A stretch of 64,000 nucleotides of DNA from Hirudinaria manillensis (lineage: Eukaryota; Annelida; Clitellata; Hirudinida; Hirudinidae), in the NCBI GenBank assembly GCA_034509925.1, contig CM067526.1, positions 4,467,501 to 4,531,500 on the forward strand, in the 5' to 3' direction. Under the pieces are notes generated by a model. It had not been told where the DNA came from, did not search any database, and saw only the letters and a list, made by a program, of their open reading frames with translations. Below, piece by piece: positions 21,556-64,000 of the stretch. Numbering within the stretch: position 1 is the first letter of the stretch; every line of letters begins with the position of its first letter. The position numbers and the translations under genes are program-made.

Positions 21556-21676
21556 CCATCCTGACACTCCCTACAGCCTCGCTCTACTCCTAACGAACGC
21601 CGTTTTTGGTCGTATCCAACAAAATCGCCTCCAAAGACTCCAGCGATTTCGATCCAACGGTTTCGCAAAACCCCTG
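21556..21676 (-). repeat. Truncated first unit at the array edge
   Basis: Homology to the unit begins with the last 12 bp around the tRNA 5' end (21556-21567). It then skips 23 bp of spacer and resumes at TCCCTACAG, with AC at both sides of the deletion. No tRNA body is present in this piece. Confidence 0.8.
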
Positions 21677-21788
21677 TGTCAGAAGTGGGATTTGAACCCA
21701 CGCCCACATCAGTGGACCAGAATACTCTGCGTCGCAAAGCAAGGAAGAACCTTGAGTCTGGCGCCTTAGACCGCTCGGCCATCCTGAC
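21677..21788 (-). tRNA. tRNA-Leu(CAA), unit 1, with intron; reference copy for the array
   Basis: Acceptor stem GTCAGGA/TTCTGAC with one G-T pair at 6-67, discriminator A at 21677, D-arm start TGGCCGAGCGG (A box, 21781-21771), T-arm GGTTCAAATCC (B box, 21698-21688), and a long variable arm with a CCAC/GTGG stem as expected for a class II tRNA. The anticodon CAA (21754-21752) reads UUG. An intron of 28 nt lies at 21723-21750 after position 37; its CCTTG can pair with CAAGG across the anticodon and first intron base, as in eukaryotic pre-tRNA-Leu(CAA). The Pol III terminator TTTT is at 21670-21667. In every normal unit the intron is at tRNA lower end +46 to +73 and the anticodon at +75 to +77. 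The spacer has two small differences from later units. Confidence 0.97.
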
Positions 21789-21922
21789 ACGACGCCGAAC
21801 AGGAACTCCAAACTCCCTACAGCCTCGCTCTACTCCTAACGAACGCCGTTTTTGGTCGTATCCAACAAAATCGCCTACAAAGACTCCAGCGATTTCGATC
21901 CAACGGTTTCGCAAAACCCTTG

Positions 21923-22034
21923 TGTCACAAGTGGGATTTGAACCCACGCCCACATCAGTGGACCAGAATACTCTGCGTCGCAAAGCAAGGAAGAACCTTG
22001 AGTCTGGCGCCTTAGACCGCTCGGCCATCCTGAC
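21923..22034 (-). tRNA. tRNA-Leu(CAA), unit 2, acceptor-stem mutation
   Basis: Same as unit 1 except that the 3' acceptor strand reads TTGTGAC, so C68 is G and faces G5. This breaks one acceptor-stem pair. Together with unit 1 and the truncated edge it shows decay at the array end. Confidence 0.9.
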
Positions 22035-22168
22035 ACGACGCCGAACAGGAACTCCAAACTCCCTACAGCCTCGCTCTACTCCTAACGAACGCCGTTTTTG
22101 GTCGTATCCAACAAAATCGCCTCCAAAGACTCCAGCGATTTCGATCCAACGGTTTCGCAAAACCCTTG

Positions 22169-22280
22169 TGTCAGAAGTGGGATTTGAACCCACGCCCACA
22201 TCAGTGGACCAGAATACTCTGCGTCGCAAAGCAAGGAAGAACCTTGAGTCTGGCGCCTTAGACCGCTCGGCCATCCTGAC
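22169..22280 (-). tRNA. tRNA-Leu(CAA), unit 3, intact
   Basis: Body identical to unit 1. A 1-bp insertion in the following spacer (near 22386) shifts the register of the next run. Confidence 0.95.
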
Positions 22281-22415
22281 ACGACGCCGAACAGGAACTC
22301 CAAACTCCCTACAGCCTCGCTCTACTCCTAACGAACGCCGTTTTTGGTCGTATCCAACAAAATCGCCTCCAAAGACTCCAGCTATTTTCGATCCAACGGT
22401 TTCGCAAAACCCTTG

Positions 22416-25400
22416 TGTCAGAAGTGGGATTTGAACCCACGCCCACATCAGTGGACCAGAATACTCTGCGTCGCAAAGCAAGGAAGAACCTTGAGTCTGG
22501 CGCCTTAGACCGCTCGGCCATCCTGACACGACGCCGAACAGGAACTCCAAACTCCCTACAGCCTCGCTCTACTCCTAACGAACGCCGTTTTTGGTCGTAT
22601 CCAACAAAATCGCCTCCAAAGACTCCAGCGATTTCGATCCAACGGTTTCGCAAAACCCTTGTGTCAGAAGTGGGATTTGAACCCACGCCCACATCAGTGG
22701 ACCAGAATACTCTGCGTCGCAAAGCAAGGAAGAACCTTGAGTCTGGCGCCTTAGACCGCTCGGCCATCCTGACACGACGCCGAACAGGAACTCCAAACTC
22801 CCTACAGCCTCGCTCTACTCCTAACGAACGCCGTTTTTGGTCGTATCCAACAAAATCGCCTACAAAGACTCCAGCGATTTCGATCCAACGGTTTCGCAAA
22901 ACCCTTGTGTCAGAAGTGGGATTTGAACCCACGCCCACATCAGTGGACCAGAATACTCTGCGTCGCAAAGCAAGGAAGAACCTTGAGTCTGGCGCCTTAG
23001 ACCGCTCGGCCATCCTGACACGACGCCGAACAGGAACTCCAAACTCCCTACAGCCTCGCTCTACTCCTAACGAACGCCGTTTTTGGTCGTATCCAACAAA
23101 ATCGCCTCCAAAGACTCCAGCGATTTCGATCCAACGGTTTCGCAAAACCCTTGTGTCAGAAGTGGGATTTGAACCCACGCCCACATCAGTGGACCAGAAT
23201 ACTCTGCGTCGCAAAGCAAGGAAGAACCTTGAGTCTGGCGCCTTAGACCGCTCGGCCATCCTGACACGACGCCGAACAGGAACTCCAAACTCCCTACAGC
23301 CTCGCTCTACTCCTAACGAACGCCGTTTTTGGTCGTATCCAACAAAATCGCCTCCAAAGACTCCAGCGATTTCGATCCAACGGTTTCGCAAAACCCTTGT
23401 GTCAGAAGTGGGATTTGAACCCACGCCCACATCAGTGGACCAGAATACTCTGCGTCGCAAAGCAAGGAAGAACCTTGAGTCTGGCGCCTTAGACCGCTCG
23501 GCCATCCTGACACGACGCCGAACAGGAACTCCAAACTCCCTACAGCCTCGCTCTACTCCTAACGAACGCCGTTTTTGGTCGTATCCAACAAAATCGCCTC
23601 CAAAGACTCCAGCGATTTCGATCCAACGGTTTCGCAAAACCCTTGTGTCAGAAGTGGGATTTGAACCCACGCCCACATCAGTGGACCAGAATACTCTGCG
23701 TCGCAAAGCAAGGAAGAACCTTGAGTCTGGCGCCTTAGACCGCTCGGCCATCCTGACACGACGCCGAACAGGAACTCCAAACTCCCTACAGCCTCGCTCT
23801 ACTCCTAACGAACGCCGTTTTTGGTCGTATCCAACAAAATCGCCTCCAAAGACTCCAGCGATTTCGATCCAACGGTTTCGCAAAACCCTTGTGTCAGAAG
23901 TGGGATTTGAACCCACGCCCACATCAGTGGACCAGAATACTCTGCGTCGCAAAGCAAGGAAGAACCTTGAGTCTGGCGCCTTAGACCGCTCGGCCATCCT
24001 GACACGACGCCGAACAGGAACTCCAAACTCCCTACAGCCTCGCTCTACTCCTAACGAACGCCGTTTTTGGTCGTATCCAACAAAATCGCCTCCAAAGACT
24101 CCAGCGATTTCGATCCAACGGTTTCGCAAAACCCTTGTGTCAGAAGTGGGATTTGAACCCACGCCCACATCAGTGGACCAGAATACTCTGCGTCGCAAAG
24201 CAAGGAAGAACCTTGAGTCTGGCGCCTTAGACCGCTCGGCCATCCTGACACGACGCCGAACAGGAACTCCAAACTCCCTACAGCCTCGCTCTACTCCTAA
24301 CGAACGCCGTTTTTGGTCGTATCCAACAAAATCGCCTACAAAGACTCCAGCGATTTCGATCCAACGGTTTCGCAAAACCCTTGTGTCAGAAGTGGGATTT
24401 GAACCCACGCCCACATCAGTGGACCAGAATACTCTGCGTCGCAAAGCAAGGAAGAACCTTGAGTCTGGCGCCTTAGACCGCTCGGCCATCCTGACACGAC
24501 GCCGAACAGGAACTCCAAACTCCCTACAGCCTCGCTCTACTCCTAACGAACGCCGTTTTTGGTCGTATCCAACAAAATCGCCTCCAAAGACTCCAGCGAT
24601 TTCGATCCAACGGTTTCGCAAAACCCTTGTGTCAGAAGTGGGATTTGAACCCACGCCCACATCAGTGGACCAGAATACTCTGCGTCGCAAAGCAAGGAAG
24701 AACCTTGAGTCTGGCGCCTTAGACCGCTCGGCCATCCTGACACGACGCCGAACAGGAACTCCAAACTCCCTACAGCCTCGCTCTACTCCTAACGAACGCC
24801 GTTTTTGGTCGTATCCAACAAAATCGCCTACAAAGACTCCAGCGATTTCGATCCAACGGTTTCGCAAAACCCTTGTGTCAGAAGTGGGATTTGAACCCAC
24901 GCCCACATCAGTGGACCAGAATACTCTGCGTCGCAAAGCAAGGAAGAACCTTGAGTCTGGCGCCTTAGACCGCTCGGCCATCCTGACACGACGCCGAACA
25001 GGAACTCCAAACTCCCTACAGCCTCGCTCTACTCCTAACGAACGCCGTTTTTGGTCGTATCCAACAAAATCGCCTACAAAGACTCCAGCGATTTCGATCC
25101 AACGGTTTCGCAAAACCCTTGTGTCAGAAGTGGGATTTGAACCCACGCCCACATCAGTGGACCAGAATACTCTGCGTCGCAAAGCAAGGAAGAACCTTGA
25201 GTCTGGCGCCTTAGACCGCTCGGCCATCCTGACACGACGCCGAACAGGAACTCCAAACTCCCTACAGCCTCGCTCTACTCCTAACGAACGCCGTTTTTGG
25301 TCGTATCCAACAAAATCGCCTACAAAGACTCCAGCGATTTCGATCCAACGGTTTCGCAAAACCCTTGTGTCAGAAGTGGGATTTGAACCCACGCCCACAT

Positions 25401-25725
25401 CAGTGGACCAGAATACTCTGCGTCGCAAAGCAAGGAAGAACCTTGAGTCTGGCGCCTTAGACCGCTCGGCCATCCTGACACGACGCCGAACAGGAACTCC
25501 AAACTCCCTACAGCCTCGCTCTACTCCTAACGAACGCCGTTTTTGGTCGTATCCAACAAAATCGCCTACAAAGACTCCAGCGATTTCGATCCAACGGTTT
25601 CGCAAAACCCTTGTGTCAGAAGTGGGATTTGAACCCACGCCCACATCAGTGGACCAGAATACTCTGCGTCGCAAAGCAAGGAAGAACCTTGAGTCTGGCG
25701 CCTTAGACCGCTCGGCCATCCTGAC
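22416..25725 (-). tRNA. Run of 14 intact tRNA-Leu(CAA) genes, units 4-17
   Basis: Genes at 22416-22527 plus 246k, k = 0 to 13, the last at 25614-25725. Units 14-18 form an unbroken block of five with the A variant in the spacer. Confidence 0.95.
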
Positions 25726-25858
25726 ACGACGCCGAACAGGAACTCCAAACTCCCTACAGCCTCGCTCTACTCCTAACGAACGCCGTTTTGGTCGTATCCA
25801 ACAAAATCGCCTACAAAGACTCCAGCGATTTCGATCCAACGGTTTCGCAAAACCCTTG

Positions 25859-26462
25859 TGTCAGAAGTGGGATTTGAACCCACGCCCACATCAGTGGACC
25901 AGAATACTCTGCGTCGCAAAGCAAGGAAGAACCTTGAGTCTGGCGCCTTAGACCGCTCGGCCATCCTGACACGACGCCGAACAGGAACTCCAAACTCCCT
26001 ACAGCCTCGCTCTACTCCTAACGAACGCCGTTTTTGGTCGTATCCAACAAAATCGCCTCCAAAGACTCCAGCGATTTCGATCCAACGGTTTCGCAAAACC
26101 CTTGTGTCAGAAGTGGGATTTGAACCCACGCCCACATCAGTGGACCAGAATACTCTGCGTCGCAAAGCAAGGAAGAACCTTGAGTCTGGCGCCTTAGACC
26201 GCTCGGCCATCCTGACACGACGCCGAACAGGAACTCCAAACTCCCTACAGCCTCGCTCTACTCCTAACGAACGCCGTTTTTGGTCGTATCCAACAAAATC
26301 GCCTCCAAAGACTCCAGCGATTTCGATCCAACGGTTTCGCAAAACCCTTGTGTCAGAAGTGGGATTTGAACCCACGCCCACATCAGTGGACCAGAATACT
26401 CTGCGTCGCAAAGCAAGGAAGAACCTTGAGTCTGGCGCCTTAGACCGCTCGGCCATCCTGAC
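25859..26462 (-). tRNA. Run of 3 intact tRNA-Leu(CAA) genes, units 18-20
   Basis: Genes at 25859-25970, 26105-26216 and 26351-26462, after a 1-bp deletion in the spacer T run near 25786. Confidence 0.95.
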
Positions 26463-26597
26463 ACGACGCCGAACAGGAACTCCAAACTCCCTACAGCCTC
26501 GCTCTACTCCTAACGAACGCCGTTTTTGGTCGTATCCAAAAAAAATCGCCTCCAAAGACTCCAGCGATTTCGATCCAACGGTTTCGCAAAACCCTTG

Positions 26598-29500
26598 TGT
26601 CAGAAGTGGGATTTGAACCCACGCCCACATCAGTGGACCAGAATACTCTGCGTCGCAAAGCAAGGAAGAACCTTGAGTCTGGCGCCTTAGACCGCTCGGC
26701 CATCCTGACACGACGCCGAACAGGAACTCCAAACTCCCTACAGCCTCGCTCTACTCCTAACGAACGCCGTTTTTGGTCGTATCCAACAAAATCGCCTACA
26801 AAGACTCCAGCGATTTCGATCCAACGGTTTCGCAAAACCCTTGTGTCAGAAGTGGGATTTGAACCCACGCCCACATCAGTGGACCAGAATACTCTGCGTC
26901 GCAAAGCAAGGAAGAACCTTGAGTCTGGCGCCTTAGACCGCTCGGCCATCCTGACACGACGCCGAACAGGAACTCCAAACTCCCTACAGCCTCGCTCTAC
27001 TCCTAACGAACGCCGTTTTTGGTCGTATCCAACAAAATCGCCTCCAAAGACTCCAGCGATTTCGATCCAACGGTTTCGCAAAACCCTTGTGTCAGAAGTG
27101 GGATTTGAACCCACGCCCACATCAGTGGACCAGAATACTCTGCGTCGCAAAGCAAGGAAGAACCTTGAGTCTGGCGCCTTAGACCGCTCGGCCATCCTGA
27201 CACGACGCCGAACAGGAACTCCAAACTCCCTACAGCCTCGCTCTACTCCTAACGAACGCCGTTTTTGGTCGTATCCAACAAAATCGCCTCCAAAGACTCC
27301 AGCGATTTCGATCCAACGGTTTCGCAAAACCCTTGTGTCAGAAGTGGGATTTGAACCCACGCCCACATCAGTGGACCAGAATACTCTGCGTCGCAAAGCA
27401 AGGAAGAACCTTGAGTCTGGCGCCTTAGACCGCTCGGCCATCCTGACACGACGCCGAACAGGAACTCCAAACTCCCTACAGCCTCGCTCTACTCCTAACG
27501 AACGCCGTTTTTGGTCGTATCCAACAAAATCGCCTCCAAAGACTCCAGCGATTTCGATCCAACGGTTTCGCAAAACCCTTGTGTCAGAAGTGGGATTTGA
27601 ACCCACGCCCACATCAGTGGACCAGAATACTCTGCGTCGCAAAGCAAGGAAGAACCTTGAGTCTGGCGCCTTAGACCGCTCGGCCATCCTGACACGACGC
27701 CGAACAGGAACTCCAAACTCCCTACAGCCTCGCTCTACTCCTAACGAACGCCGTTTTTGGTCGTATCCAACAAAATCGCCTCCAAAGACTCCAGCGATTT
27801 CGATCCAACGGTTTCGCAAAACCCTTGTGTCAGAAGTGGGATTTGAACCCACGCCCACATCAGTGGACCAGAATACTCTGCGTCGCAAAGCAAGGAAGAA
27901 CCTTGAGTCTGGCGCCTTAGACCGCTCGGCCATCCTGACACGACGCCGAACAGGAACTCCAAACTCCCTACAGCCTCGCTCTACTCCTAACGAACGCCGT
28001 TTTTGGTCGTATCCAACAAAATCGCCTCCAAAGACTCCAGCGATTTCGATCCAACGGTTTCGCAAAACCCTTGTGTCAGAAGTGGGATTTGAACCCACGC
28101 CCACATCAGTGGACCAGAATACTCTGCGTCGCAAAGCAAGGAAGAACCTTGAGTCTGGCGCCTTAGACCGCTCGGCCATCCTGACACGACGCCGAACAGG
28201 AACTCCAAACTCCCTACAGCCTCGCTCTACTCCTAACGAACGCCGTTTTTGGTCGTATCCAACAAAATCGCCTCCAAAGACTCCAGCGATTTCGATCCAA
28301 CGGTTTCGCAAAACCCTTGTGTCAGAAGTGGGATTTGAACCCACGCCCACATCAGTGGACCAGAATACTCTGCGTCGCAAAGCAAGGAAGAACCTTGAGT
28401 CTGGCGCCTTAGACCGCTCGGCCATCCTGACACGACGCCGAACAGGAACTCCAAACTCCCTACAGCCTCGCTCTACTCCTAACGAACGCCGTTTTTGGTC
28501 GTATCCAACAAAATCGCCTCCAAAGACTCCAGCGATTTCGATCCAACGGTTTCGCAAAACCCTTGTGTCAGAAGTGGGATTTGAACCCACGCCCACATCA
28601 GTGGACCAGAATACTCTGCGTCGCAAAGCAAGGAAGAACCTTGAGTCTGGCGCCTTAGACCGCTCGGCCATCCTGACACGACGCCGAACAGGAACTCCAA
28701 ACTCCCTACAGCCTCGCTCTACTCCTAACGAACGCCGTTTTTGGTCGTATCCAACAAAATCGCCTCCAAAGACTCCAGCGATTTCGATCCAACGGTTTCG
28801 CAAAACCCTTGTGTCAGAAGTGGGATTTGAACCCACGCCCACATCAGTGGACCAGAATACTCTGCGTCGCAAAGCAAGGAAGAACCTTGAGTCTGGCGCC
28901 TTAGACCGCTCGGCCATCCTGACACGACGCCGAACAGGAACTCCAAACTCCCTACAGCCTCGCTCTACTCCTAACGAACGCCGTTTTTGGTCGTATCCAA
29001 CAAAATCGCCTCCAAAGACTCCAGCGATTTCGATCCAACGGTTTCGCAAAACCCTTGTGTCAGAAGTGGGATTTGAACCCACGCCCACATCAGTGGACCA
29101 GAATACTCTGCGTCGCAAAGCAAGGAAGAACCTTGAGTCTGGCGCCTTAGACCGCTCGGCCATCCTGACACGACGCCGAACAGGAACTCCAAACTCCCTA
29201 CAGCCTCGCTCTACTCCTAACGAACGCCGTTTTTGGTCGTATCCAACAAAATCGCCTCCAAAGACTCCAGCGATTTCGATCCAACGGTTTCGCAAAACCC
29301 TTGTGTCAGAAGTGGGATTTGAACCCACGCCCACATCAGTGGACCAGAATACTCTGCGTCGCAAAGCAAGGAAGAACCTTGAGTCTGGCGCCTTAGACCG
29401 CTCGGCCATCCTGACACGACGCCGAACAGGAACTCCAAACTCCCTACAGCCTCGCTCTACTCCTAACGAACGCCGTTTTTGGTCGTATCCAACAAAATCG

Positions 29501-32500
29501 CCTCCAAAGACTCCAGCGATTTCGATCCAACGGTTTCGCAAAACCCTTGTGTCAGAAGTGGGATTTGAACCCACGCCCACATCAGTGGACCAGAATACTC
29601 TGCGTCGCAAAGCAAGGAAGAACCTTGAGTCTGGCGCCTTAGACCGCTCGGCCATCCTGACACGACGCCGAACAGGAACTCCAAACTCCCTACAGCCTCG
29701 CTCTACTCCTAACGAACGCCGTTTTTGGTCGTATCCAACAAAATCGCCTCCAAAGACTCCAGCGATTTCGATCCAACGGTTTCGCAAAACCCTTGTGTCA
29801 GAAGTGGGATTTGAACCCACGCCCACATCAGTGGACCAGAATACTCTGCGTCGCAAAGCAAGGAAGAACCTTGAGTCTGGCGCCTTAGACCGCTCGGCCA
29901 TCCTGACACGACGCCGAACAGGAACTCCAAACTCCCTACAGCCTCGCTCTACTCCTAACGAACGCCGTTTTTGGTCGTATCCAACAAAATCGCCTCCAAA
30001 GACTCCAGCGATTTCGATCCAACGGTTTCGCAAAACCCTTGTGTCAGAAGTGGGATTTGAACCCACGCCCACATCAGTGGACCAGAATACTCTGCGTCGC
30101 AAAGCAAGGAAGAACCTTGAGTCTGGCGCCTTAGACCGCTCGGCCATCCTGACACGACGCCGAACAGGAACTCCAAACTCCCTACAGCCTCGCTCTACTC
30201 CTAACGAACGCCGTTTTTGGTCGTATCCAACAAAATCGCCTCCAAAGACTCCAGCGATTTCGATCCAACGGTTTCGCAAAACCCTTGTGTCAGAAGTGGG
30301 ATTTGAACCCACGCCCACATCAGTGGACCAGAATACTCTGCGTCGCAAAGCAAGGAAGAACCTTGAGTCTGGCGCCTTAGACCGCTCGGCCATCCTGACA
30401 CGACGCCGAACAGGAACTCCAAACTCCCTACAGCCTCGCTCTACTCCTAACGAACGCCGTTTTTGGTCGTATCCAACAAAATCGCCTCCAAAGACTCCAG
30501 CGATTTCGATCCAACGGTTTCGCAAAACCCTTGTGTCAGAAGTGGGATTTGAACCCACGCCCACATCAGTGGACCAGAATACTCTGCGTCGCAAAGCAAG
30601 GAAGAACCTTGAGTCTGGCGCCTTAGACCGCTCGGCCATCCTGACACGACGCCGAACAGGAACTCCAAACTCCCTACAGCCTCGCTCTACTCCTAACGAA
30701 CGCCGTTTTTGGTCGTATCCAACAAAATCGCCTCCAAAGACTCCAGCGATTTCGATCCAACGGTTTCGCAAAACCCTTGTGTCAGAAGTGGGATTTGAAC
30801 CCACGCCCACATCAGTGGACCAGAATACTCTGCGTCGCAAAGCAAGGAAGAACCTTGAGTCTGGCGCCTTAGACCGCTCGGCCATCCTGACACGACGCCG
30901 AACAGGAACTCCAAACTCCCTACAGCCTCGCTCTACTCCTAACGAACGCCGTTTTTGGTCGTATCCAACAAAATCGCCTCCAAAGACTCCAGCGATTTCG
31001 ATCCAACGGTTACGAAAAAACAAACTGTCAGAAGTGGGATTTGAACCCACGCCCACATCAGTGGACCAGAATACTCTGCGTCGCAAAGCAAGGAAGAACC
31101 TTGAGTCTGGCGCCTTAGACCGCTCGGCCATCCTGACACGACGCCGAACAGGAACTCCAAACTCCCTACAGCCTCGCTCTACTCCTAACGAAACCCGTTT
31201 ATGGTCGTATCCAACAAAATCGCCTCCAAAGACTCCAGCGATTTCGATCCAACGGTTTCGCAAAACCCTTGTGTCAGAAGTGGGATTTGAACCCACGCCC
31301 ACATCAGTGGACCAGAATACTCTGCGTCGCAAAGCAAGGAAGAACCTTGAGTCTGGCGCCTTAGACCGCTCGGCCATCCTGACACGACGCCGAACAGGAA
31401 CTCCAAACTCCCTACAGCCTCGCTCTACTCCTAACGAACGCCGTTTTTGGTCGTATCCAACAAAATCGCCTCCAAAGACTCCAGCGATTTCGATCCAACG
31501 GTTTCGCAAAACCCTTGTGTCAGAAGTGGGATTTGAACCCACGCCCACATCAGTGGACCAGAATACTCTGCGTCGCAAAGCAAGGAAGAACCTTGAGTCT
31601 GGCGCCTTAGACCGCTCGGCCATCCTGACACGACGCCGAACAGGAACTCCAAACTCCCTACAGCCTCGCTCTACTCCTAACGAACGCCGTTTTTGGTCGT
31701 ATCCAACAAAATCGCCTCCAAAGACTCCAGCGATTTCGATCCAACGGTTTCGCAAAACCCTTGTGTCAGAAGTGGGATTTGAACCCACGCCCACATCAGT
31801 GGACCAGAATACTCTGCGTCGCAAAGCAAGGAAGAACCTTGAGTCTGGCGCCTTAGACCGCTCGGCCATCCTGACACGACGCCGAACAGGAACTCCAAAC
31901 TCCCTACAGCCTCGCTCTACTCCTAACGAACGCCGTTTTTGGTCGTATCCAACAAAATCGCCTCCAAAGACTCCAGCGATTTCGATCCAACGGTTTCGCA
32001 AAACCCTTGTGTCAGAAGTGGGATTTGAACCCACGCCCACATCAGTGGACCAGAATACTCTGCGTCGCAAAGCAAGGAAGAACCTTGAGTCTGGCGCCTT
32101 AGACCGCTCGGCCATCCTGACACGACGCCGAACAGGAACTCCAAACTCCCTACAGCCTCGCTCTACTCCTAACGAACGCCGTTTTTGGTCGTATCCAACA
32201 AAATCGCCTCCAAAGACTCCAGCGATTTCGATCCAACGGTTTCGCAAAACCCTTGTGTCAGAAGTGGGATTTGAACCCACGCCCACATCAGTGGACCAGA
32301 ATACTCTGCGTCGCAAAGCAAGGAAGAACCTTGAGTCTGGCGCCTTAGACCGCTCGGCCATCCTGACACGACGCCGAACAGGAACTCCAAACTCCCTACA
32401 GCCTCGCTCTACTCCTAACGAACGCCGTTTTTGGTCGTATCCAACAAAATCGCCTCCAAAGACTCCAGCGATTTCGATCCAACGGTTTCGCAAAACCCTT

Positions 32501-34827
32501 GTGTCAGAAGTGGGATTTGAACCCACGCCCACATCAGTGGACCAGAATACTCTGCGTCGCAAAGCAAGGAAGAACCTTGAGTCTGGCGCCTTAGACCGCT
32601 CGGCCATCCTGACACGACGCCGAACAGGAACTCCAAACTCCCTACAGCCTCGCTCTACTCCTAACGAACGCCGTTTTTGGTCGTATCCAACAAAATCGCC
32701 TACAAAGACTCCAGCGATTTCGATCCAACGGTTTCGCAAAACCCTTGTGTCAGAAGTGGGATTTGAACCCACGCCCACATCAGTGGACCAGAATACTCTG
32801 CGTCGCAAAGCAAGGAAGAACCTTGAGTCTGGCGCCTTAGACCGCTCGGCCATCCTGACACGACGCCGAACAGGAACTCCAAACTCCCTACAGCCTCGCT
32901 CTACTCCTAACGAACGCCGTTTTTGGTCGTATCCAACAAAATCGCCTCCAAAGACTCCAGCGATTTCGATCCAACGGTTTCGCAAAACCCTTGTGTCAGA
33001 AGTGGGATTTGAACCCACGCCCACATCAGTGGACCAGAATACTCTGCGTCGCAAAGCAAGGAAGAACCTTGAGTCTGGCGCCTTAGACCGCTCGGCCATC
33101 CTGACACGACGCCGAACAGGAACTCCAAACTCCCTACAGCCTCGCTCTACTCCTAACGAACGCCGTTTTTGGTCGTATCCAACAAAATCGCCTACAAAGA
33201 CTCCAGCGATTTCGATCCAACGGTTTCGCAAAACCCTTGTGTCAGAAGTGGGATTTGAACCCACGCCCACATCAGTGGACCAGAATACTCTGCGTCGCAA
33301 AGCAAGGAAGAACCTTGAGTCTGGCGCCTTAGACCGCTCGGCCATCCTGACACGACGCCGAACAGGAACTCCAAACTCCCTACAGCCTCGCTCTACTCCT
33401 AACGAACGCCGTTTTTGGTCGTATCCAACAAAATCGCCTCCAAAGACTCCAGCGATTTCGATCCAACGGTTTCGCAAAACCCTTGTGTCAGAAGTGGGAT
33501 TTGAACCCACGCCCACATCAGTGGACCAGAATACTCTGCGTCGCAAAGCAAGGAAGAACCTTGAGTCTGGCGCCTTAGACCGCTCGGCCATCCTGACACG
33601 ACGCCGAACAGGAACTCCAAACTCCCTACAGCCTCGCTCTACTCCTAACGAACGCCGTTTTTGGTCGTATCCAACAAAATCGCCTCCAAAGACTCCAGCG
33701 ATTTCGATCCAACGGTTTCGCAAAACCCTTGTGTCAGAAGTGGGATTTGAACCCACGCCCACATCAGTGGACCAGAATACTCTGCGTCGCAAAGCAAGGA
33801 AGAACCTTGAGTCTGGCGCCTTAGACCGCTCGGCCATCCTGACACGACGCCGAACAGGAACTCCAAACTCCCTACAGCCTCGCTCTACTCCTAACGAACG
33901 CCGTTTTTGGTCGTATCCAACAAAATCGCCTACAAAGACTCCAGCGATTTCGATCCAACGGTTTCGCAAAACCCTTGTGTCAGAAGTGGGATTTGAACCC
34001 ACGCCCACATCAGTGGACCAGAATACTCTGCGTCGCAAAGCAAGGAAGAACCTTGAGTCTGGCGCCTTAGACCGCTCGGCCATCCTGACACGACGCCGAA
34101 CAGGAACTCCAAACTCCCTACAGCCTCGCTCTACTCCTAACGAACGCCGTTTTTGGTCGTATCCAACAAAATCGCCTCCAAAGACTCCAGCGATTTCGAT
34201 CCAACGGTTTCGCAAAACCCTTGTGTCAGAAGTGGGATTTGAACCCACGCCCACATCAGTGGACCAGAATACTCTGCGTCGCAAAGCAAGGAAGAACCTT
34301 GAGTCTGGCGCCTTAGACCGCTCGGCCATCCTGACACGACGCCGAACAGGAACTCCAAACTCCCTACAGCCTCGCTCTACTCCTAACGAACGCCGTTTTT
34401 GGTCGTATCCAACAAAATCGCCTCCAAAGACTCCAGCGATTTCGATCCAACGGTTTCGCAAAACCCTTGTGTCAGAAGTGGGATTTGAACCCACGCCCAC
34501 ATCAGTGGACCAGAATACTCTGCGTCGCAAAGCAAGGAAGAACCTTGAGTCTGGCGCCTTAGACCGCTCGGCCATCCTGACACGACGCCGAACAGGAACT
34601 CCAAACTCCCTACAGCCTCGCTCTACTCCTAACGAACGCCGTTTTTGGTCGTATCCAACAAAATCGCCTCCAAAGACTCCAGCGATTTCGATCCAACGGT
34701 TTCGCAAAACCCTTGTGTCAGAAGTGGGATTTGAACCCACGCCCACATCAGTGGACCAGAATACTCTGCGTCGCAAAGCAAGGAAGAACCTTGAGTCTGG
34801 CGCCTTAGACCGCTCGGCCATCCTGAC
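26598..34827 (-). tRNA. Run of 34 intact tRNA-Leu(CAA) genes, units 21-54
   Basis: Genes at 26598-26709 plus 246k, k = 0 to 33, the last at 34716-34827. Units 23-45 all carry the C variant in the spacer, the longest uniform stretch. Unit 39 (31026-31137) has an intact body but a changed 3' flank in which the terminator is T6 rather than T4. Confidence 0.95.
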
Positions 34828-34961
34828 ACGACGCCGAACAGGAACTCCAAACTCCCTACAGCCTCGCTCTACTCCTAACGAACGCCGTTTTTGGTCGTAT
34901 CCAACAAAATCGCCTCCAAAGACTCCAGCGATTTCGATCCAACGGTTTCGCAAAACCCTCG

Positions 34962-53036: not shown

Positions 53037-53170
53037 ACGACGCCGAACAGGAACTCCAAACTCCCTACAGCCTCGCTCTACTCCTAACGAACGCCGTTTT
53101 TGGTCGTATCCAACAAAATCGCCTCCAAAGACTCCAGCGATTTCGATCCAACGGTTTCGCAAAACCCTTG

Positions 53171-53282
53171 TGTCAGAAGTGGGATTTGTAACCGAGCCCA
53201 CATCAGTGGACCAGAATACTCTGCGTCGCAAAGCAAGGAAGAACCTTGAGTCTGGCGCCTTAGACCGCTCGGCCATCCTGAC
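53171..53282 (-). tRNA. tRNA-Leu(CAA), unit 129, damaged B box and T arm
   Basis: The T-arm region reads GGGCTCGGTTACAAATCC where the others have GGGCGTGGGTTCAAATCC. The T stem's 5' strand and the B-box spacing are lost, so this copy is likely a pseudogene. Confidence 0.85.
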
Positions 53283-53416
53283 ACGACGCCGAACAGGAAC
53301 TCCAAACTCCCTACAGCCTCGCTCTACTCCTAACGAACGCCGTTTTTGGTCGTATCCAACAAAATCGCCTCCAAAGACTCCAGCGATTTCGATCCAACGG
53401 TTTCGCAAAACCCTTG

Positions 53417-56400
53417 TGTCAGAAGTGGGATTTGAACCCACGCCCACATCAGTGGACCAGAATACTCTGCGTCGCAAAGCAAGGAAGAACCTTGAGTCTG
53501 GCGCCTTAGACCGCTCGGCCATCCTGACACGACGCCGAACAGGAACTCCAAACTCCCTACAGCCTCGCTCTACTCCTAACGAACGCCGTTTTTGGTCGTA
53601 TCCAACAAAATCGCCTCCAAAGACTCCAGCGATTTCGATCCAACGGTTTCGCAAAACCCTTGTGTCAGAAGTGGGATTTGAACCCACGCCCACATCAGTG
53701 GACCAGAATACTCTGCGTCGCAAAGCAAGGAAGAACCTTGAGTCTGGCGCCTTAGACCGCTCGGCCATCCTGACACGACGCCGAACAGGAACTCCAAACT
53801 CCCTACAGCCTCGCTCTACTCCTAACGAACGCCGTTTTTGGTCGTATCCAACAAAATCGCCTACAAAGACTCCAGCGATTTCGATCCAACGGTTTCGCAA
53901 AACCCTTGTGTCAGAAGTGGGATTTGAACCCACGCCCACATCAGTGGACCAGAATACTCTGCGTCGCAAAGCAAGGAAGAACCTTGAGTCTGGCGCCTTA
54001 GACCGCTCGGCCATCCTGACACGACGCCGAACAGGAACTCCAAACTCCCTACAGCCTCGCTCTACTCCTAACGAACGCCGTTTTTGGTCGTATCCAACAA
54101 AATCGCCTACAAAGACTCCAGCGATTTCGATCCAACGGTTTCGCAAAACCCTTGTGTCAGAAGTGGGATTTGAACCCACGCCCACATCAGTGGACCAGAA
54201 TACTCTGCGTCGCAAAGCAAGGAAGAACCTTGAGTCTGGCGCCTTAGACCGCTCGGCCATCCTGACACGACGCCGAACAGGAACTCCAAACTCCCTACAG
54301 CCTCGCTCTACTCCTAACGAACGCCGTTTTTGGTCGTATCCAACAAAATCGCCTACAAAGACTCCAGCGATTTCGATCCAACGGTTTCGCAAAACCCTTG
54401 TGTCAGAAGTGGGATTTGAACCCACGCCCACATCAGTGGACCAGAATACTCTGCGTCGCAAAGCAAGGAAGAACCTTGAGTCTGGCGCCTTAGACCGCTC
54501 GGCCATCCTGACACGACGCCGAACAGGAACTCCAAACTCCCTACAGCCTCGCTCTACTCCTAACGAACGCCGTTTTTGGTCGTATCCAACAAAATCGCCT
54601 ACAAAGACTCCAGCGATTTCGATCCAACGGTTTCGCAAAACCCTTGTGTCAGAAGTGGGATTTGAACCCACGCCCACATCAGTGGACCAGAATACTCTGC
54701 GTCGCAAAGCAAGGAAGAACCTTGAGTCTGGCGCCTTAGACCGCTCGGCCATCCTGACACGACGCCGAACAGGAACTCCAAACTCCCTACAGCCTCGCTC
54801 TACTCCTAACGAACGCCGTTTTTGGTCGTATCCAACAAAATCGCCTCCAAAGACTCCAGCGATTTCGATCCAACGGTTTCGCAAAACCCTTGTGTCAGAA
54901 GTGGGATTTGAACCCACGCCCACATCAGTGGACCAGAATACTCTGCGTCGCAAAGCAAGGAAGAACCTTGAGTCTGGCGCCTTAGACCGCTCGGCCATCC
55001 TGACACGACGCCGAACAGGAACTCCAAACTCCCTACAGCCTCGCTCTACTCCTAACGAACGCCGTTTTTGGTCGTATCCAACAAAATCGCCTCCAAAGAC
55101 TCCAGCGATTTCGATCCAACGGTTTCGCAAAACCCTTGTGTCAGAAGTGGGATTTGAACCCACGCCCACATCAGTGGACCAGAATACTCTGCGTCGCAAA
55201 GCAAGGAAGAACCTTGAGTCTGGCGCCTTAGACCGCTCGGCCATCCTGACACGACGCCGAACAGGAACTCCAAACTCCCTACAGCCTCGCTCTACTCCTA
55301 ACGAACGCCGTTTTTGGTCGTATCCAACAAAATCGCCTACAAAGACTCCAGCGATTTCGATCCAACGGTTTCGCAAAACCCTTGTGTCAGAAGTGGGATT
55401 TGAACCCACGCCCACATCAGTGGACCAGAATACTCTGCGTCGCAAAGCAAGGAAGAACCTTGAGTCTGGCGCCTTAGACCGCTCGGCCATCCTGACACGA
55501 CGCCGAACAGGAACTCCAAACTCCCTACAGCCTCGCTCTACTCCTAACGAACGCCGTTTTTGGTCGTATCCAACAAAATCGCCTCCAAAGACTCCAGCGA
55601 TTTCGATCCAACGGTTTCGCAAAACCCTTGTGTCAGAAGTGGGATTTGAACCCACGCCCACATCAGTGGACCAGAATACTCTGCGTCGCAAAGCAAGGAA
55701 GAACCTTGAGTCTGGCGCCTTAGACCGCTCGGCCATCCTGACACGACGCCGAACAGGAACTCCAAACTCCCTACAGCCTCGCTCTACTCCTAACGAACGC
55801 CGTTTTTGGTCGTATCCAACAAAATCGCCTCCAAAGACTCCAGCGATTTCGATCCAACGGTTTCGCAAAACCCTTGTGTCAGAAGTGGGATTTGAACCCA
55901 CGCCCACATCAGTGGACCAGAATACTCTGCGTCGCAAAGCAAGGAAGAACCTTGAGTCTGGCGCCTTAGACCGCTCGGCCATCCTGACACGACGCCGAAC
56001 AGGAACTCCAAACTCCCTACAGCCTCGCTCTACTCCTAACGAACGCCGTTTTTGGTCGTATCCAACAAAATCGCCTACAAAGACTCCAGCGATTTCGATC
56101 CAACGGTTTCGCAAAACCCTTGTGTCAGAAGTGGGATTTGAACCCACGCCCACATCAGTGGACCAGAATACTCTGCGTCGCAAAGCAAGGAAGAACCTTG
56201 AGTCTGGCGCCTTAGACCGCTCGGCCATCCTGACACGACGCCGAACAGGAACTCCAAACTCCCTACAGCCTCGCTCTACTCCTAACGAACGCCGTTTTTG
56301 GTCGTATCCAACAAAATCGCCTACAAAGACTCCAGCGATTTCGATCCAACGGTTTCGCAAAAACCTTGTGTCAGAAGTGGGATTTGAACCCACGCCCACA

Positions 56401-59400
56401 TCAGTGGACCAGAATACTCTGCGTCGCAAAGCAAGGAAGAACCTTGAGTCTGGCGCCTTAGACCGCTCGGCCATCCTGACACGACGCCGAACAGGAACTC
56501 CAAACTCCCTACAGCCTCGCTCTACTCCTAACGAACGCCGTTTTTGGTCGTATCCAACAAAATCGCCTCCAAAGACTCCAGCGATTTCGATCCAACGGTT
56601 TCGCAAAACCCTTGTGTCAGAAGTGGGATTTGAACCCACGCCCACATCAGTGGACCAGAATACTCTGCGTCGCAAAGCAAGGAAGAACCTTGAGTCTGGC
56701 GCCTTAGACCGCTCGGCCATCCTGACACGACGCCGAACAGGAACTCCAAACTCCCTACAGCCTCGCTCTACTCCTAACGAACGCCGTTTTTGGTCGTATC
56801 CAACAAAATCGCCTCCAAAGACTCCAGCGATTTCGATCCAACGGTTTCGCAAAACCCTTGTGTCAGAAGTGGGATTTGAACCCACGCCCACATCAGTGGA
56901 CCAGAATACTCTGCGTCGCAAAGCAAGGAAGAACCTTGAGTCTGGCGCCTTAGACCGCTCGGCCATCCTGACACGACGCCGAACAGGAACTCCAAACTCC
57001 CTACAGCCTCGCTCTACTCCTAACGAACGCCGTTTTTGGTCGTATCCAACAAAATCGCCTCCAAAGACTCCAGCGATTTCGATCCAACGGTTTCGCAAAA
57101 CCCTTGTGTCAGAAGTGGGATTTGAACCCACGCCCACATCAGTGGACCAGAATACTCTGCGTCGCAAAGCAAGGAAGAACCTTGAGTCTGGCGCCTTAGA
57201 CCGCTCGGCCATCCTGACACGACGCCGAACAGGAACTCCAAACTCCCTACAGCCTCGCTCTACTCCTAACGAACGCCGTTTTTGGTCGTATCCAACAAAA
57301 TCGCCTCCAAAGACTCCAGCGATTTCGATCCAACGGTTTCGCAAAACCCTTGTGTCAGAAGTGGGATTTGAACCCACGCCCACATCAGTGGACCAGAATA
57401 CTCTGCGTCGCAAAGCAAGGAAGAACCTTGAGTCTGGCGCCTTAGACCGCTCGGCCATCCTGACACGACGCCGAACAGGAACTCCAAACTCCCTACAGCC
57501 TCGCTCTACTCCTAACGAACGCCGTTTTTGGTCGTATCCAACAAAATCGCCTCCAAAGACTCCAGCGATTTCGATCCAACGGTTTCGCAAAACCCTTGTG
57601 TCAGAAGTGGGATTTGAACCCACGCCCACATCAGTGGACCAGAATACTCTGCGTCGCAAAGCAAGGAAGAACCTTGAGTCTGGCGCCTTAGACCGCTCGG
57701 CCATCCTGACACGACGCCGAACAGGAACTCCAAACTCCCTACAGCCTCGCTCTACTCCTAACGAACGCCGTTTTTGGTCGTATCCAACAAAATCGCCTCC
57801 AAAGACTCCAGCGATTTCGATCCAACGGTTTCGCAAAACCCTTGTGTCAGAAGTGGGATTTGAACCCACGCCCACATCAGTGGACCAGAATACTCTGCGT
57901 CGCAAAGCAAGGAAGAACCTTGAGTCTGGCGCCTTAGACCGCTCGGCCATCCTGACACGACGCCGAACAGGAACTCCAAACTCCCTACAGCCTCGCTCTA
58001 CTCCTAACGAACGCCGTTTTTGGTCGTATCCAACAAAATCGCCTCCAAAGACTCCAGCGATTTCGATCCAACGGTTTCGCAAAACCCTTGTGTCAGAAGT
58101 GGGATTTGAACCCACGCCCACATCAGTGGACCAGAATACTCTGCGTCGCAAAGCAAGGAAGAACCTTGAGTCTGGCGCCTTAGACCGCTCGGCCATCCTG
58201 ACACGACGCCGAACAGGAACTCCAAACTCCCTACAGCCTCGCTCTACTCCTAACGAACGCCGTTTTTGGTCGTATCCAACAAAATCGCCTCCAAAGACTC
58301 CAGCGATTTCGATCCAACGGTTTCGCAAAACCCTTGTGTCAGAAGTGGGATTTGAACCCACGCCCACATCAGTGGACCAGAATACTCTGCGTCGCAAAGC
58401 AAGGAAGAACCTTGAGTCTGGCGCCTTAGACCGCTCGGCCATCCTGACACGACGCCGAACAGGAACTCCAAACTCCCTACAGCCTCGCTCTACTCCTAAC
58501 GAACGCCGTTTTTGGTCGTATCCAACAAAATCGCCTCCAAAGACTCCAGCGATTTCGATCCAACGGTTTCGCAAAACCCTTGTGTCAGAAGTGGGATTTG
58601 AACCCACGCCCACATCAGTGGACCAGAATACTCTGCGTCGCAAAGCAAGGAAGAACCTTGAGTCTGGCGCCTTAGACCGCTCGGCCATCCTGACACGACG
58701 CCGAACAGGAACTCCAAACTCCCTACAGCCTCGCTCTACTCCTAACGAACGCCGTTTTTGGTCGTATCCAACAAAATCGCCTCCAAAGACTCCAGCGATT
58801 TCGATCCAACGGTTTCGCAAAACCCTTGTGTCAGAAGTGGGATTTGAACCCACGCCCACATCAGTGGACCAGAATACTCTGCGTCGCAAAGCAAGGAAGA
58901 ACCTTGAGTCTGGCGCCTTAGACCGCTCGGCCATCCTGACACGACGCCGAACAGGAACTCCAAACTCCCTACAGCCTCGCTCTACTCCTAACGAACGCCG
59001 TTTTTGGTCGTATCCAACAAAATCGCCTCCAAAGACTCCAGCGATTTCGATCCAACGGTTTCGCAAAACCCTTGTGTCAGAAGTGGGATTTGAACCCACG
59101 CCCACATCAGTGGACCAGAATACTCTGCGTCGCAAAGCAAGGAAGAACCTTGAGTCTGGCGCCTTAGACCGCTCGGCCATCCTGACACGACGCCGAACAG
59201 GAACTCCAAACTCCCTACAGCCTCGCTCTACTCCTAACGAACGCCGTTTTTGGTCGTATCCAACAAAATCGCCTCCAAAGACTCCAGCGATTTCGATCCA
59301 ACGGTTTCGCAAAACCCTTGTGTCAGAAGTGGGATTTGAACCCACGCCCACATCAGTGGACCAGAATACTCTGCGTCGCAAAGCAAGGAAGAACCTTGAG

Positions 59401-60416
59401 TCTGGCGCCTTAGACCGCTCGGCCATCCTGACACGACGCCGAACAGGAACTCCAAACTCCCTACAGCCTCGCTCTACTCCTAACGAACGCCGTTTTTGGT
59501 CGTATCCAACAAAATCGCCTCCAAAGACTCCAGCGATTTCGATCCAACGGTTTCGCAAAACCCTTGTGTCAGAAGTGGGATTTGAACCCACGCCCACATC
59601 AGTGGACCAGAATACTCTGCGTCGCAAAGCAAGGAAGAACCTTGAGTCTGGCGCCTTAGACCGCTCGGCCATCCTGACACGACGCCGAACAGGAACTCCA
59701 AACTCCCTACAGCCTCGCTCTACTCCTAACGAACGCCGTTTTTGGTCGTATCCAACAAAATCGCCTCCAAAGACTCCAGCGATTTCGATCCAACGGTTTC
59801 GCAAAACCCTTGTGTCAGAAGTGGGATTTGAACCCACGCCCACATCAGTGGACCAGAATACTCTGCGTCGCAAAGCAAGGAAGAACCTTGAGTCTGGCGC
59901 CTTAGACCGCTCGGCCATCCTGACACGACGCCGAACAGGAACTCCAAACTCCCTACAGCCTCGCTCTACTCCTAACGAACGCCGTTTTTGGTCGTATCCA
60001 ACAAAATCGCCTCCAAAGACTCCAGCGATTTCGATCCAACGGTTTCGCAAAACCCTTGTGTCAGAAGTGGGATTTGAACCCACGCCCACATCAGTGGACC
60101 AGAATACTCTGCGTCGCAAAGCAAGGAAGAACCTTGAGTCTGGCGCCTTAGACCGCTCGGCCATCCTGACACGACGCCGAACAGGAACTCCAAACTCCCT
60201 ACAGCCTCGCTCTACTCCTAACGAACGCCGTTTTTGGTCGTATCCAACAAAATCGCCTACAAAGACTCCAGCGATTTCGATCCAACGGTTTCGCAAAACC
60301 CTTGTGTCAGAAGTGGGATTTGAACCCACGCCCACATCAGTGGACCAGAATACTCTGCGTCGCAAAGCAAGGAAGAACCTTGAGTCTGGCGCCTTAGACC
60401 GCTCGGCCATCCTGAC
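53417..60416 (-). tRNA. Run of 29 intact tRNA-Leu(CAA) genes, units 130-158
   Basis: Genes at 53417-53528 plus 246k, k = 0 to 28, the last at 60305-60416. Units 132-135 are a block of four A-variant spacers; units 143-157 are all C variant. Unit 142 has a T5 terminator. Confidence 0.95.
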
Positions 60417-60551
60417 ACGACGCCGAACAGGAACTCCAAACTCCCTACAGCCTCGCTCTACTCCTAACGAACGCCGTTTTTGGTCGTATCCAACAAAATC
60501 GCCTCCAAAGACTCCAGCGATTTCGATCCAACGGTTTTCGCAAAACCCTTG

Positions 60552-61893
60552 TGTCAGAAGTGGGATTTGAACCCACGCCCACATCAGTGGACCAGAATAC
60601 TCTGCGTCGCAAAGCAAGGAAGAACCTTGAGTCTGGCGCCTTAGACCGCTCGGCCATCCTGACACGACGCCGAACAGGAACTCCAAACTCCCTACAGCCT
60701 CGCTCTACTCCTAACGAACGCCGTTTTTGGTCGTATCCAACAAAATCGCCTCCAAAGACTCCAGCGATTTCGATCCAACGGTTTCGCAAAACCCTTGTGT
60801 CAGAAGTGGGATTTGAACCCACGCCCACATCAGTGGACCAGAATACTCTGCGTCGCAAAGCAAGGAAGAACCTTGAGTCTGGCGCCTTAGACCGCTCGGC
60901 CATCCTGACACGACGCCGAACAGGAACTCCAAACTCCCTACAGCCTCGCTCTACTCCTAACGAACGCCGTTTTTGGTCGTATCCAACAAAATCGCCTCCA
61001 AAGACTCCAGCGATTTCGATCCAACGGTTTCGCAAAACCCTTGTGTCAGAAGTGGGATTTGAACCCACGCCCACATCAGTGGACCAGAATACTCTGCGTC
61101 GCAAAGCAAGGAAGAACCTTGAGTCTGGCGCCTTAGACCGCTCGGCCATCCTGACACGACGCCGAACAGGAACTCCAAACTCCCTACAGCCTCGCTCTAC
61201 TCCTAACGAACGCCGTTTTTGGTCGTATCCAACAAAATCGCCTCCAAAGACTCCAGCGATTTCGATCCAACGGTTTCGCAAAACCCTTGTGTCAGAAGTG
61301 GGATTTGAACCCACGCCCACATCAGTGGACCAGAATACTCTGCGTCGCAAAGCAAGGAAGAACCTTGAGTCTGGCGCCTTAGACCGCTCGGCCATCCTGA
61401 CACGACGCCGAACAGGAACTCCAAACTCCCTACAGCCTCGCTCTACTCCTAACGAACGCCGTTTTTGGTCGTATCCAACAAAATCGCCTACAAAGACTCC
61501 AGCGATTTCGATCCAACGGTTTCGCAAAACCCTTGTGTCAGAAGTGGGATTTGAACCCACGCCCACATCAGTGGACCAGAATACTCTGCGTCGCAAAGCA
61601 AGGAAGAACCTTGAGTCTGGCGCCTTAGACCGCTCGGCCATCCTGACACGACGCCGAACAGGAACTCCAAACTCCCTACAGCCTCGCTCTACTCCTAACG
61701 AACGCCGTTTTTGGTCGTATCCAACAAAATCGCCTCCAAAGACTCCAGCGATTTCGATCCAACGGTTTCGCAAAACCCTTGTGTCAGAAGTGGGATTTGA
61801 ACCCACGCCCACATCAGTGGACCAGAATACTCTGCGTCGCAAAGCAAGGAAGAACCTTGAGTCTGGCGCCTTAGACCGCTCGGCCATCCTGAC
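60552..61893 (-). tRNA. Run of 6 intact tRNA-Leu(CAA) genes, units 159-164
   Basis: Genes at 60552-60663 plus 246k, k = 0 to 5, the last at 61782-61893. Confidence 0.95.
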
Positions 61894-62027
61894 ACGACGC
61901 CGAACAGGAACTCCAAACTCCCTACAGCCTCGCTCTACTCCTAACGAACGCCGTTTTTGGTCGTATCCAACAAAATCGCCTACAAAGACTCCAGCGATTT
62001 CGATCCAACGGTTTCGCAAAACCCTTG

Positions 62028-62188
62028 TGTCAGAAGTGGGATTTGAACCCACGCCCACATCAGTGGACCAGAATACTCTGCGTCGCAAAGCAAGGAAGAA
62101 CCTTGAGTCTGGCGCCTTAGAATACTCTGCGTCGCAAAGCAAGGAAGAACCTTGAGTCTGGCGCCTTAGACCGCTCGGCCATCCTGAC
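62028..62188 (-). tRNA. tRNA-Leu(CAA), unit 165, with internal 49-bp duplication
   Basis: A 49-bp segment running from the end of the D loop through the anticodon stem, anticodon and intron is repeated in tandem, so the gene is 161 bp and holds two CAA anticodons and two introns between one set of acceptor and T arms. Very likely not a normal tRNA. Confidence 0.9.
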
Positions 62189-62321
62189 ACGACGCCGAAC
62201 AGGAACTCCAAACTCCCTACAGCCTCGCTCTACTCCTAACGAACGCCGTTTTTGGTCGTATCCAAAAAATCGCCTACAAAGACTCCAGCGATTTCGATCC
62301 AACGGTTTCGCAAAACCCTTG

Positions 62322-63909
62322 TGTCAGAAGTGGGATTTGAACCCACGCCCACATCAGTGGACCAGAATACTCTGCGTCGCAAAGCAAGGAAGAACCTTGA
62401 GTCTGGCGCCTTAGACCGCTCGGCCATCCTGACACGACGCCGAACAGGAACTCCAAACTCCCTACAGCCTCGCTCTACTCCTAACGAACGCCGTTTTTGG
62501 TCGTATCCAACAAAATCGCCTCCAAAGACTCCAGCGATTTCGATCCAACGGTTTCGCAAAACCCTTGTGTCAGAAGTGGGATTTGAACCCACGCCCACAT
62601 CAGTGGACCAGAATACTCTGCGTCGCAAAGCAAGGAAGAACCTTGAGTCTGGCGCCTTAGACCGCTCGGCCATCCTGACACGACGCCGAACAGGAACTCC
62701 AAACTCCCTACAGCCTCGCTCTACTCCTAACGAACGCCGTTTTTGGTCGTATCCAACAAAATCGCCTCCAAAGACTCCAGCGATTTCGATCCAACGGTTT
62801 CGCAAAACCCTTGTGTCAGAAGTGGGATTTGAACCCACGCCCACATCAGTGGACCAGAATACTCTGCGTCGCAAAGCAAGGAAGAACCTTGAGTCTGGCG
62901 CCTTAGACCGCTCGGCCATCCTGACACGACGCCGAACAGGAACTCCAAACTCCCTACAGCCTCGCTCTACTCCTAACGAACGCCGTTTTTGGTCGTATCC
63001 AACAAAATCGCCTCCAAAGACTCCAGCGATTTCGATCCAACGGTTTCGCAAAACCCTTGTGTCAGAAGTGGGATTTGAACCCACGCCCACATCAGTGGAC
63101 CAGAATACTCTGCGTCGCAAAGCAAGGAAGAACCTTGAGTCTGGCGCCTTAGACCGCTCGGCCATCCTGACACGACGCCGAACAGGAACTCCAAACTCCC
63201 TACAGCCTCGCTCTACTCCTAACGAACGACGTTTTTGGTCGTATCCAACAAAATCGCCTACAAAGACTCCAGCGATTTCGATCCAACGGTTTCGCAAAAC
63301 CCTTGTGTCAGAAGTGGGATTTGAACCCACGCCCACATCAGTGGACCAGAATACTCTGCGTCGCAAAGCAAGGAAGAACCTTGAGTCTGGCGCCTTAGAC
63401 CGCTCGGCCATCCTGACACGACGCCGAACAGGAACTCCAAACTCCCTACAGCCTCGCTCTACTCCTAACGAACGCCGTTTTTGGTCGTATCCAACAAAAT
63501 CGCCTCCAAAGACTCCAGCGATTTCGATCCAACGGTTTCGCAAAACCCTTGTGTCAGAAGTGGGATTTGAACCCACGCCCACATCAGTGGACCAGAATAC
63601 TCTGCGTCGCAAAGCAAGGAAGAACCTTGAGTCTGGCGCCTTAGACCGCTCGGCCATCCTGACACGACGCCGAACAGGAACTCCAAACTCCCTACAGCCT
63701 CGCTCTACTCCTAACGAACGCCGTTTTTGGTCGTATCCAACAAAATCGCCTCCAAAGACTCCAGCGATTTCGATCCAACGGTTTCGCAAAACCCTTGTGT
63801 CAGAAGTGGGATTTGAACCCACGCCCACATCAGTGGACCAGAATACTCTGCGTCGCAAAGCAAGGAAGAACCTTGAGTCTGGCGCCTTAGACCGCTCGGC
63901 CATCCTGAC
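62322..63909 (-). tRNA. Run of 7 intact tRNA-Leu(CAA) genes, units 166-172
   Basis: Genes at 62322-62433 plus 246k, k = 0 to 6, the last at 63798-63909. The 91 bases after it are spacer of the next unit, so the array continues beyond the window. Confidence 0.95.
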
Positions 63910-64000
63910 ACGACGCCGAACAGGAACTCCAAACTCCCTACAGCCTCGCTCTACTCCTAACGAACGCCGTTTTTGGTCGTATCCAACAAAATCGCCTACA

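Follow-up and report, generated by a model that had tools for sequence, protein, structure and literature searches.

Transfer RNA (tRNA) genes are found as tandem repeats in several eukaryotes, and the 3.18-kb tandem repeat of Xenopus is one mixed unit that carries several tRNAs. Genome-wide tRNA arrays were long held to be a peculiarity of Entamoeba and have lately been reported in two hydroids. In Entamoeba 25 array units were described, the function of which is unclear and for which concerted evolution was proposed (PMC2652664). Among cnidarians, tRNA arrays cover all 20 amino acids in Hydractinia and some are present in Nematostella (PMC11067881), and a 2010 survey counted clusters of fifty or more tRNA genes in Nematostella and in fishes (PMC2888827). 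Searches of the literature for annelid and leech tRNA arrays found no report among the papers listed, which does not prove their absence in print; for Hirudo medicinalis, the draft genome was given with 429 tRNA genes, and the available part of its description does not mention tRNA arrays. Here we analyze a window, by which we mean the whole stretch of 64,000 nucleotides at C1:4,467,501-4,531,500 in a genome assembly of 148,429,096 bases and 23 contigs, which from position 21556 to its right edge is made up of head-to-tail copies of one intron-containing tRNA-Leu(CAA) gene. The whole array is about 255 head-to-tail units of 246 bp long, and the genome has at least six further tandem tRNA arrays. 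We consider it probable that these are tRNA multigene arrays transcribed by RNA polymerase III and kept uniform by concerted evolution.

Anatomy of the tRNA-Leu(CAA) array

Tandem Repeats Finder gives a period of 246 at 99% matches over positions 21566-62121 and 62119-63997 of the window, and 173 exact copies of a 21-base anchor, from 21567 to 63934, delimit 172 full head-to-tail units followed by 67 bases of the next one. The array of at least 172 head-to-tail 246-bp units, as announced in the original prediction from the sequence alone, is thus recovered with the same start and with one additional cut unit, but its description of the units as perfect does not hold: 115 of the 172 are of one type (A), 35 belong to a second type (B) that departs from the first at one spacer base (C/A), and the remaining 22 are changed otherwise, one of them by a 49-bp duplication. 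The exact length of 246 bp is kept in 161 of the 172 units, and the 112-nt gene occurs 166 times without any change in the window. Gene and spacer are uniform to an equal degree, the two main types accounting for 150 of the 172 units, and some of the changes in the 22 variant units are clustered in a manner suggestive of sequencing error. The coordinates of the features discussed here and of the other arrays are collected in Table 1.

The gene lies on the minus strand and consists of a first exon of 38 nt, an intron of 28 nt and a second exon of 46 nt, the mature tRNA having 84 nt without CCA. Searching positions 1-24000 of the window against Rfam yielded the tRNA family RF00005 at 10 of 10 tRNA positions, eight of them scoring 48.4 bits, one 42.8 bits and one 36.6 bits (the last being a tRNA cut by the end of the searched stretch), and no other Rfam family above threshold in the same stretch. 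The intron directly follows the base 3' of the CAA anticodon. In its spliced form the RNA is predicted to fold into a tRNA cloverleaf with a long variable arm, which is a feature of leucine tRNAs, whereas the best predicted fold of the unspliced form is no clean cloverleaf. ARAGORN found no tRNA in positions 1-24000 of the window and, with introns allowed, 232 genes in the array region, for which it placed the intron otherwise and gave the label Met(CAT). The identity as tRNA-Leu(CAA) follows from the Rfam alignment, the position of the intron relative to the anticodon and the cloverleaf of the spliced form, and the original prediction of a large intron-bearing array of this single isoacceptor is confirmed.

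Table 1. Location of the tRNA-Leu(CAA) array, its parts and the other tandem tRNA arrays (positions without contig name are those of the window)
Feature	Position	Strand	Basis
tRNA-Leu(CAA) tandem array, window part (runs on to C1:4,551,796)	21556-64000	minus	repeat search, anchor and gene counts
Left boundary, decayed terminal copy: 11 bases of tRNA 5' end joined to the following unit across a deletion of about 23 bp	21556-21566	minus	sequence comparison
First complete tRNA-Leu(CAA) gene	21677-21788	minus	Rfam, exon/intron layout, fold
Representative type A unit (unit 3), 246 bp, gene at 22169-22280	22059-22304	minus	Rfam, anchor, unit typing
Run of four T 7 nt past the gene, likely RNA polymerase III terminator of that unit	22159-22162	minus	T-run scan and sequence reading
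Broken copy: 49-bp duplication within one tRNA, 295-bp unit	62070-62170	minus	repeat search, anchor spacing, unit typing
Cut unit at window edge, array continuing	63934-64000	minus	anchor and flank sequence
Thr(AGT)/Leu(CAG), opposite strands, 585-bp unit, 75 copies	C1:5,585,418-5,629,428		
Phe(GAA)/Glu(TTC), opposite strands, 400-bp unit, at least 90 Phe copies	C2 from 14,065,966		
Ala(TGC)-Gly(GCC)-Ala(AGC), 553-bp unit, 99 matches to the Ala(AGC) anticodon arm	C5 about 8,149,600-8,204,000		
Initiator Met, 185-bp unit, 80 copies (80 of 84 genome matches)	C6:2,218,587-2,233,221		
Asp(GTC)/Asn(GTT), 499-bp unit, Asp 78 of 79 genome matches, Asn in every unit read	C8:2,930,667-2,969,110		
Lys(CTT) tandem block, at least 3 genes	C4		

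Extent of the array and quality of the assembly

Tandem Repeats Finder places the whole array at C1:4,489,066-4,551,796 with about 254.7 copies, i.e. about 255 units, and the right end, missing from the original prediction, is thereby located beyond the window. Across the whole array 249 copies keep the 5' half of the gene and the anticodon within two mismatches, and 211 copies contain the exact 112-nt gene. A G/C variant in the intron occurs in 12 segments. Neither of the two end units is intact: the left one carries an internal deletion and the right one breaks off within the tRNA, as would be expected of end copies that escape homogenization. Beyond the window, an 8.7-kb stretch (approximate length; C1:4,540,500-4,549,200) shows private changes in 21 of 32 segments, many of them insertions or deletions, vs. 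15 of 217 segments elsewhere (five double-length segments, omitted from the listing of variants, are nevertheless counted in these totals). This stretch is probably a patch of low accuracy, and since it has this appearance the true copy number may differ from the one given.

The possibility that the array is an artefact of assembly, its copy number being wrong or inflated, has to be considered here, as the same stretch resembles low-accuracy sequence bridging the array. We nevertheless judge it highly improbable: the flanks consist of non-array DNA on both sides within one contig of 14.8 Mb, several further arrays with units of their own are found on other contigs, and a collapse of copies is as likely as an inflation. 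Moreover, according to the markers shared between units, any run of 23 units (5.7 kb) is unique, which would allow most of the array to be placed with accurate long reads.

A single detected locus for tRNA-Leu(CAA)

A 22-base motif comprising part of the 5' half of the gene and the anticodon, searched for with up to two mismatches, has 249 matches in the genome, all on one strand, with none on the other strand and none in a reversed control. The same motif has 249 matches in the array region alone; all genome matches therefore lie within the array. At this sensitivity, at which a more diverged Leu(CAA) gene would be missed, no Leu(CAA) locus other than the array was detected in the assembly. 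Two other kinds of repeat were considered and discarded. A tRNA-derived short interspersed element would have dispersed copies in which a degenerate tRNA head is followed by a tail of unrelated sequence, and does not agree with the presence of 249 out of 249 copies in one locus with genes intact. Non-coding satellite DNA does not agree with the presence of a tRNA gene in each complete unit and of 211 exact copies.

Apart from the array, a 62-bp fragment at C12:549,766-549,827, which shares 92% identity with the 3' portion of the tRNA-Leu(CAA) gene, is the sole other trace among the matches listed in a search of the genome with the whole unit. ARAGORN predicts no gene at this fragment, the surrounding 10-kb locus also has a reverse transcriptase frame, and the fragment is perhaps a retroposed piece.

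According to the original prediction such an array could serve a high demand for UUG decoding, the copy number then having been selected for dosage. That the array is the only locus detected speaks for this explanation, as does the fact that UUG (43 occurrences) is the commonest single leucine codon, above CUG (24), in a small and unweighted sample of 1,960 codons taken from seven exon-like pieces, the ends of which may include non-coding bases. In the same sample, however, 249 Leu(CAA) genes face 43 UUG codons whereas 78 Asp genes face 121 Asp codons. This comparison weakens the explanation by demand, which we regard as unlikely, and copy number probably reflects the dynamics of the array more than codon demand.

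Other tRNA arrays in the genome

The search with the whole unit also brought up a second array. In total, at least seven tandem tRNA arrays, Leu(CAA) included, are distributed over six contigs and comprise 12 isoacceptors for ten amino acids (Table 1). Being one of many arrays is the main fact about the Leu(CAA) array, and one that lay beyond the view of the original prediction. Among the probed isoacceptors, the share of matches found in arrays amounts to 249 of 249 for Leu(CAA), 78 of 79 for Asp and 80 of 84 for initiator Met. The lone Asp-like match, with one mismatch, is located at C8:2,990,334-2,990,354, about 21 kb past the Asp/Asn array. No Rfam match of any kind was obtained in 120 kb of non-array DNA from 12 loci. 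Counts of B-box patterns, on both strands and vs. a reversed control, were 1368 v 91, 763 v 52, 218 v 30, 369 v 111 (where the excess is partly a spacer match in the C5 array) and 24 v 23, and suggest that the arrays located hold a small part of the tRNA genes of the genome. In the Rfam search of the genome 63 of 10,475 loose candidates were scored, and the figure of 10,475 does not serve as a count of genes.

The arrays also resemble each other outside the genes. A run of at least four T occurs within 45 nt downstream, at +6 to +35, in 11 of the 11 arrayed gene types examined (Lys excluded). Spacers of six arrays (Lys again excluded) have a G+C content of 51.5-57.2%, vs. 33.7%, 36.6% and 31.7% in three array flanks, and a CpG observed/expected ratio of 0.97-1.68, vs. 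0.80-1.17 in the same flanks. The gap in G+C between spacers and flanks suggests GC-biased gene conversion, which during homogenization would have raised the G+C content of the spacers; selection on the spacers, or inheritance from a GC-rich founding unit, are alternatives.

A gene-internal promoter region is present in every complete unit. This would agree with the array being a chromatin element, that is, a long run of TFIIIC-bound genes acting as a barrier or domain boundary, and a boundary role has indeed been proposed for the human tRNA gene (tDNA) repeat at 1q23.3 (PMC4041453). On the other hand, none of six array units contains a strict CTCF-type motif, and the existence of at least seven arrays with very different gene content makes a specific boundary role unlikely as a general cause. 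We hold this explanation to be very unlikely.

Probable concerted evolution of the array

The reading of the locus as an array under concerted evolution is based on the intact and foldable gene, on the two types that cover 150 of the 172 window units, on the confinement of all Leu(CAA) matches to the array and on the existence of the other arrays. As a mechanism, we propose that RNA polymerase III transcribes at least some of the copies, each unit being provided with a promoter inside the gene and a short run of T as terminator, and that unequal sister-chromatid exchange together with gene conversion would keep the units uniform and set their number. Many copies may be silent, as they commonly are in ribosomal DNA, and the high copy number would be mainly a product of array dynamics, retained since a cell that has this tRNA at one locus cannot lose it, and selection may protect the arrays by acting on the whole locus and not on single copies.

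Several observations weigh against this reading or against its generality. Outside the error-rich stretch, private substitutions number 7 in the 84 mature positions vs. 15 in the 162 positions of spacer plus intron, a comparison confounded by likely sequencing errors; the mature tRNA thus has no clear deficit of such changes, and no sign of selection on single copies is seen. Type B units lie next to each other about as often as expected by chance (18 adjacent pairs vs. 16.3 in shuffles), hence no direct sign of a recent duplication of blocks is seen either. Matches to initiator Met are also found outside its array, three of them exact on C2 and one with three mismatches on C4. Finally, one genome search with a proline tRNA motif, allowing up to three mismatches, matched only the Ala array and gave no proline gene, and this limits any claim that all isoacceptors are arrayed.

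The first of these points bears as well on the idea, already raised in the original prediction, of a passive satellite that captured a tRNA gene and whose copies are not working genes. Amplification and uniformity are like those of satellite DNA, the copies are far in excess of need, and private changes show no visible shortage in the mature tRNA, on account of which the idea keeps a small probability. It fits poorly, however, with at least six other tRNA arrays that have unrelated spacers of their own, as these are not expected from one capture. Furthermore, with no other Leu(CAA) gene detected in the genome the cell would be left without this tRNA, and the same exact 112 nt are kept in 211 of about 255 genes. 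We find a passive satellite hardly credible and retain concerted evolution of a working multigene array as the probable reading.

A more far-reaching proposal, which we put forward tentatively and with slightly more doubt than confidence, is that most or all nuclear tRNA genes of this genome have been reorganized into single-locus satellite-like arrays, with one locus for each group of isoacceptors, so that tRNA supply is run like that of ribosomal DNA. Each locus would then be a large, homogenized and G+C-driven store of copies, of which no more than a fraction would have to be active. If this were true, one exchange or conversion event could replace the sequence of a tRNA throughout the genome.

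Neighboring features and mitochondrial evidence

The nearest recognized gene to the left of the array is represented by exons of a Fuseless-family membrane protein (PF15993) on the minus strand at 17794-18522 and 19441-19983 of the window. Further to the left are an exon of cytochrome c oxidase subunit VIb (PF02297) on the plus strand at 6764-7063 and an array of the pentanucleotide ATTAT at 10460-10827, with about 74 copies and 97% matches. In the right flank (L011:5688-6506, plus strand) one frame weakly matches the beginning of a T-box domain, at 27.2 bits vs. a cut-off of 26; of the Pfam matches in the frames scanned on this side, it is the one nearest to the array. Apart from one reverse transcriptase, the open frames of the right flank and of the C12 locus mentioned above correspond to pieces of ordinary genes.

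The mitochondrial contig (C23, 15,581 bp) uses a code in which AGR stands for Ser, ATA for Met and TGA for Trp, and the 2,871 of its 15,581 bases that were read have the gene order cox1-trnN-cox2-trnD-atp8-like-trnG-trnY-cox3. This order fits the one that we take to be conserved in annelids, cox1-N-cox2-D-atp8-Y/G-cox3. Mitochondrial code and gene order together indicate that the genome is most likely that of an annelid, leeches with small genomes being an obvious guess. A nematode origin, also considered, was discarded on these grounds. A search of solved structures with cox1 returned the expected cytochrome oxidases only. A nuclear copy of mitochondrial DNA was observed at C9:3,026,446-3,027,786, reaching the end of the locus; in a comparison over 2,871 bases it differs from the mitochondrial contig by 8 mismatches and no gaps (99.72% identity), and reflects an insertion of very recent date or else an error in the assembly.

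Significance and comparison with known systems

Tandem tRNA arrays are a kind of locus already known, to which the present genome adds a case that is probably bilaterian and annelid, in which the units are very short, the spacers are rich in G+C and at least one isoacceptor is supplied from a single locus. An annelid case means that the arrangement arose, or was kept, in bilaterians too, and assemblies from short reads probably hid such arrays. The supply of whole tRNA species from single loci opens the way to direct tests that link gene number, silencing and concerted evolution to translation, and spacers that are G+C-rich in all six arrays examined, within an A+T-rich genome, amount to a natural experiment on biased gene conversion.

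In plants, tandem tRNA clusters comprise up to 110 genes, an example being the 27 tRNA-Pro genes of Arabidopsis (PMC12652284). The variable number tandem repeat of tDNA at human 1q23.3 is similar to the present arrays in being a G+C-rich and CpG-rich tandem tRNA repeat; its copy number varies from 9 to 43 units, and its unit measures 7.3 kb and comprises five tRNA genes together with CTCF sites, whereas the units found here measure 185-585 bp and have no strict CTCF motif (PMC4041453). Hydractinia, a cnidarian, has all 20 amino acids arrayed, compared with ten so far in the present genome (PMC11067881). The likeness to Entamoeba extends to several aspects: units contain one to a few tRNA genes (up to five in Entamoeba, one to three here), the copies are nearly uniform, and copy number has no clear tie to codon use (PMC2652664). 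In Entamoeba, moreover, most tRNA genes are in tandem arrays and few are dispersed, which may hold for the present genome as well. The differences concern the intergenic DNA, which in Entamoeba histolytica is very A+T-rich and contains short tandem repeats whereas the spacers here are G+C-rich, and the share of the genome, arrays making up more than 10% of that of E. histolytica and those located so far in the present genome far less (PMC2652664). Entamoeba is also a protist, whereas the present case is an animal.

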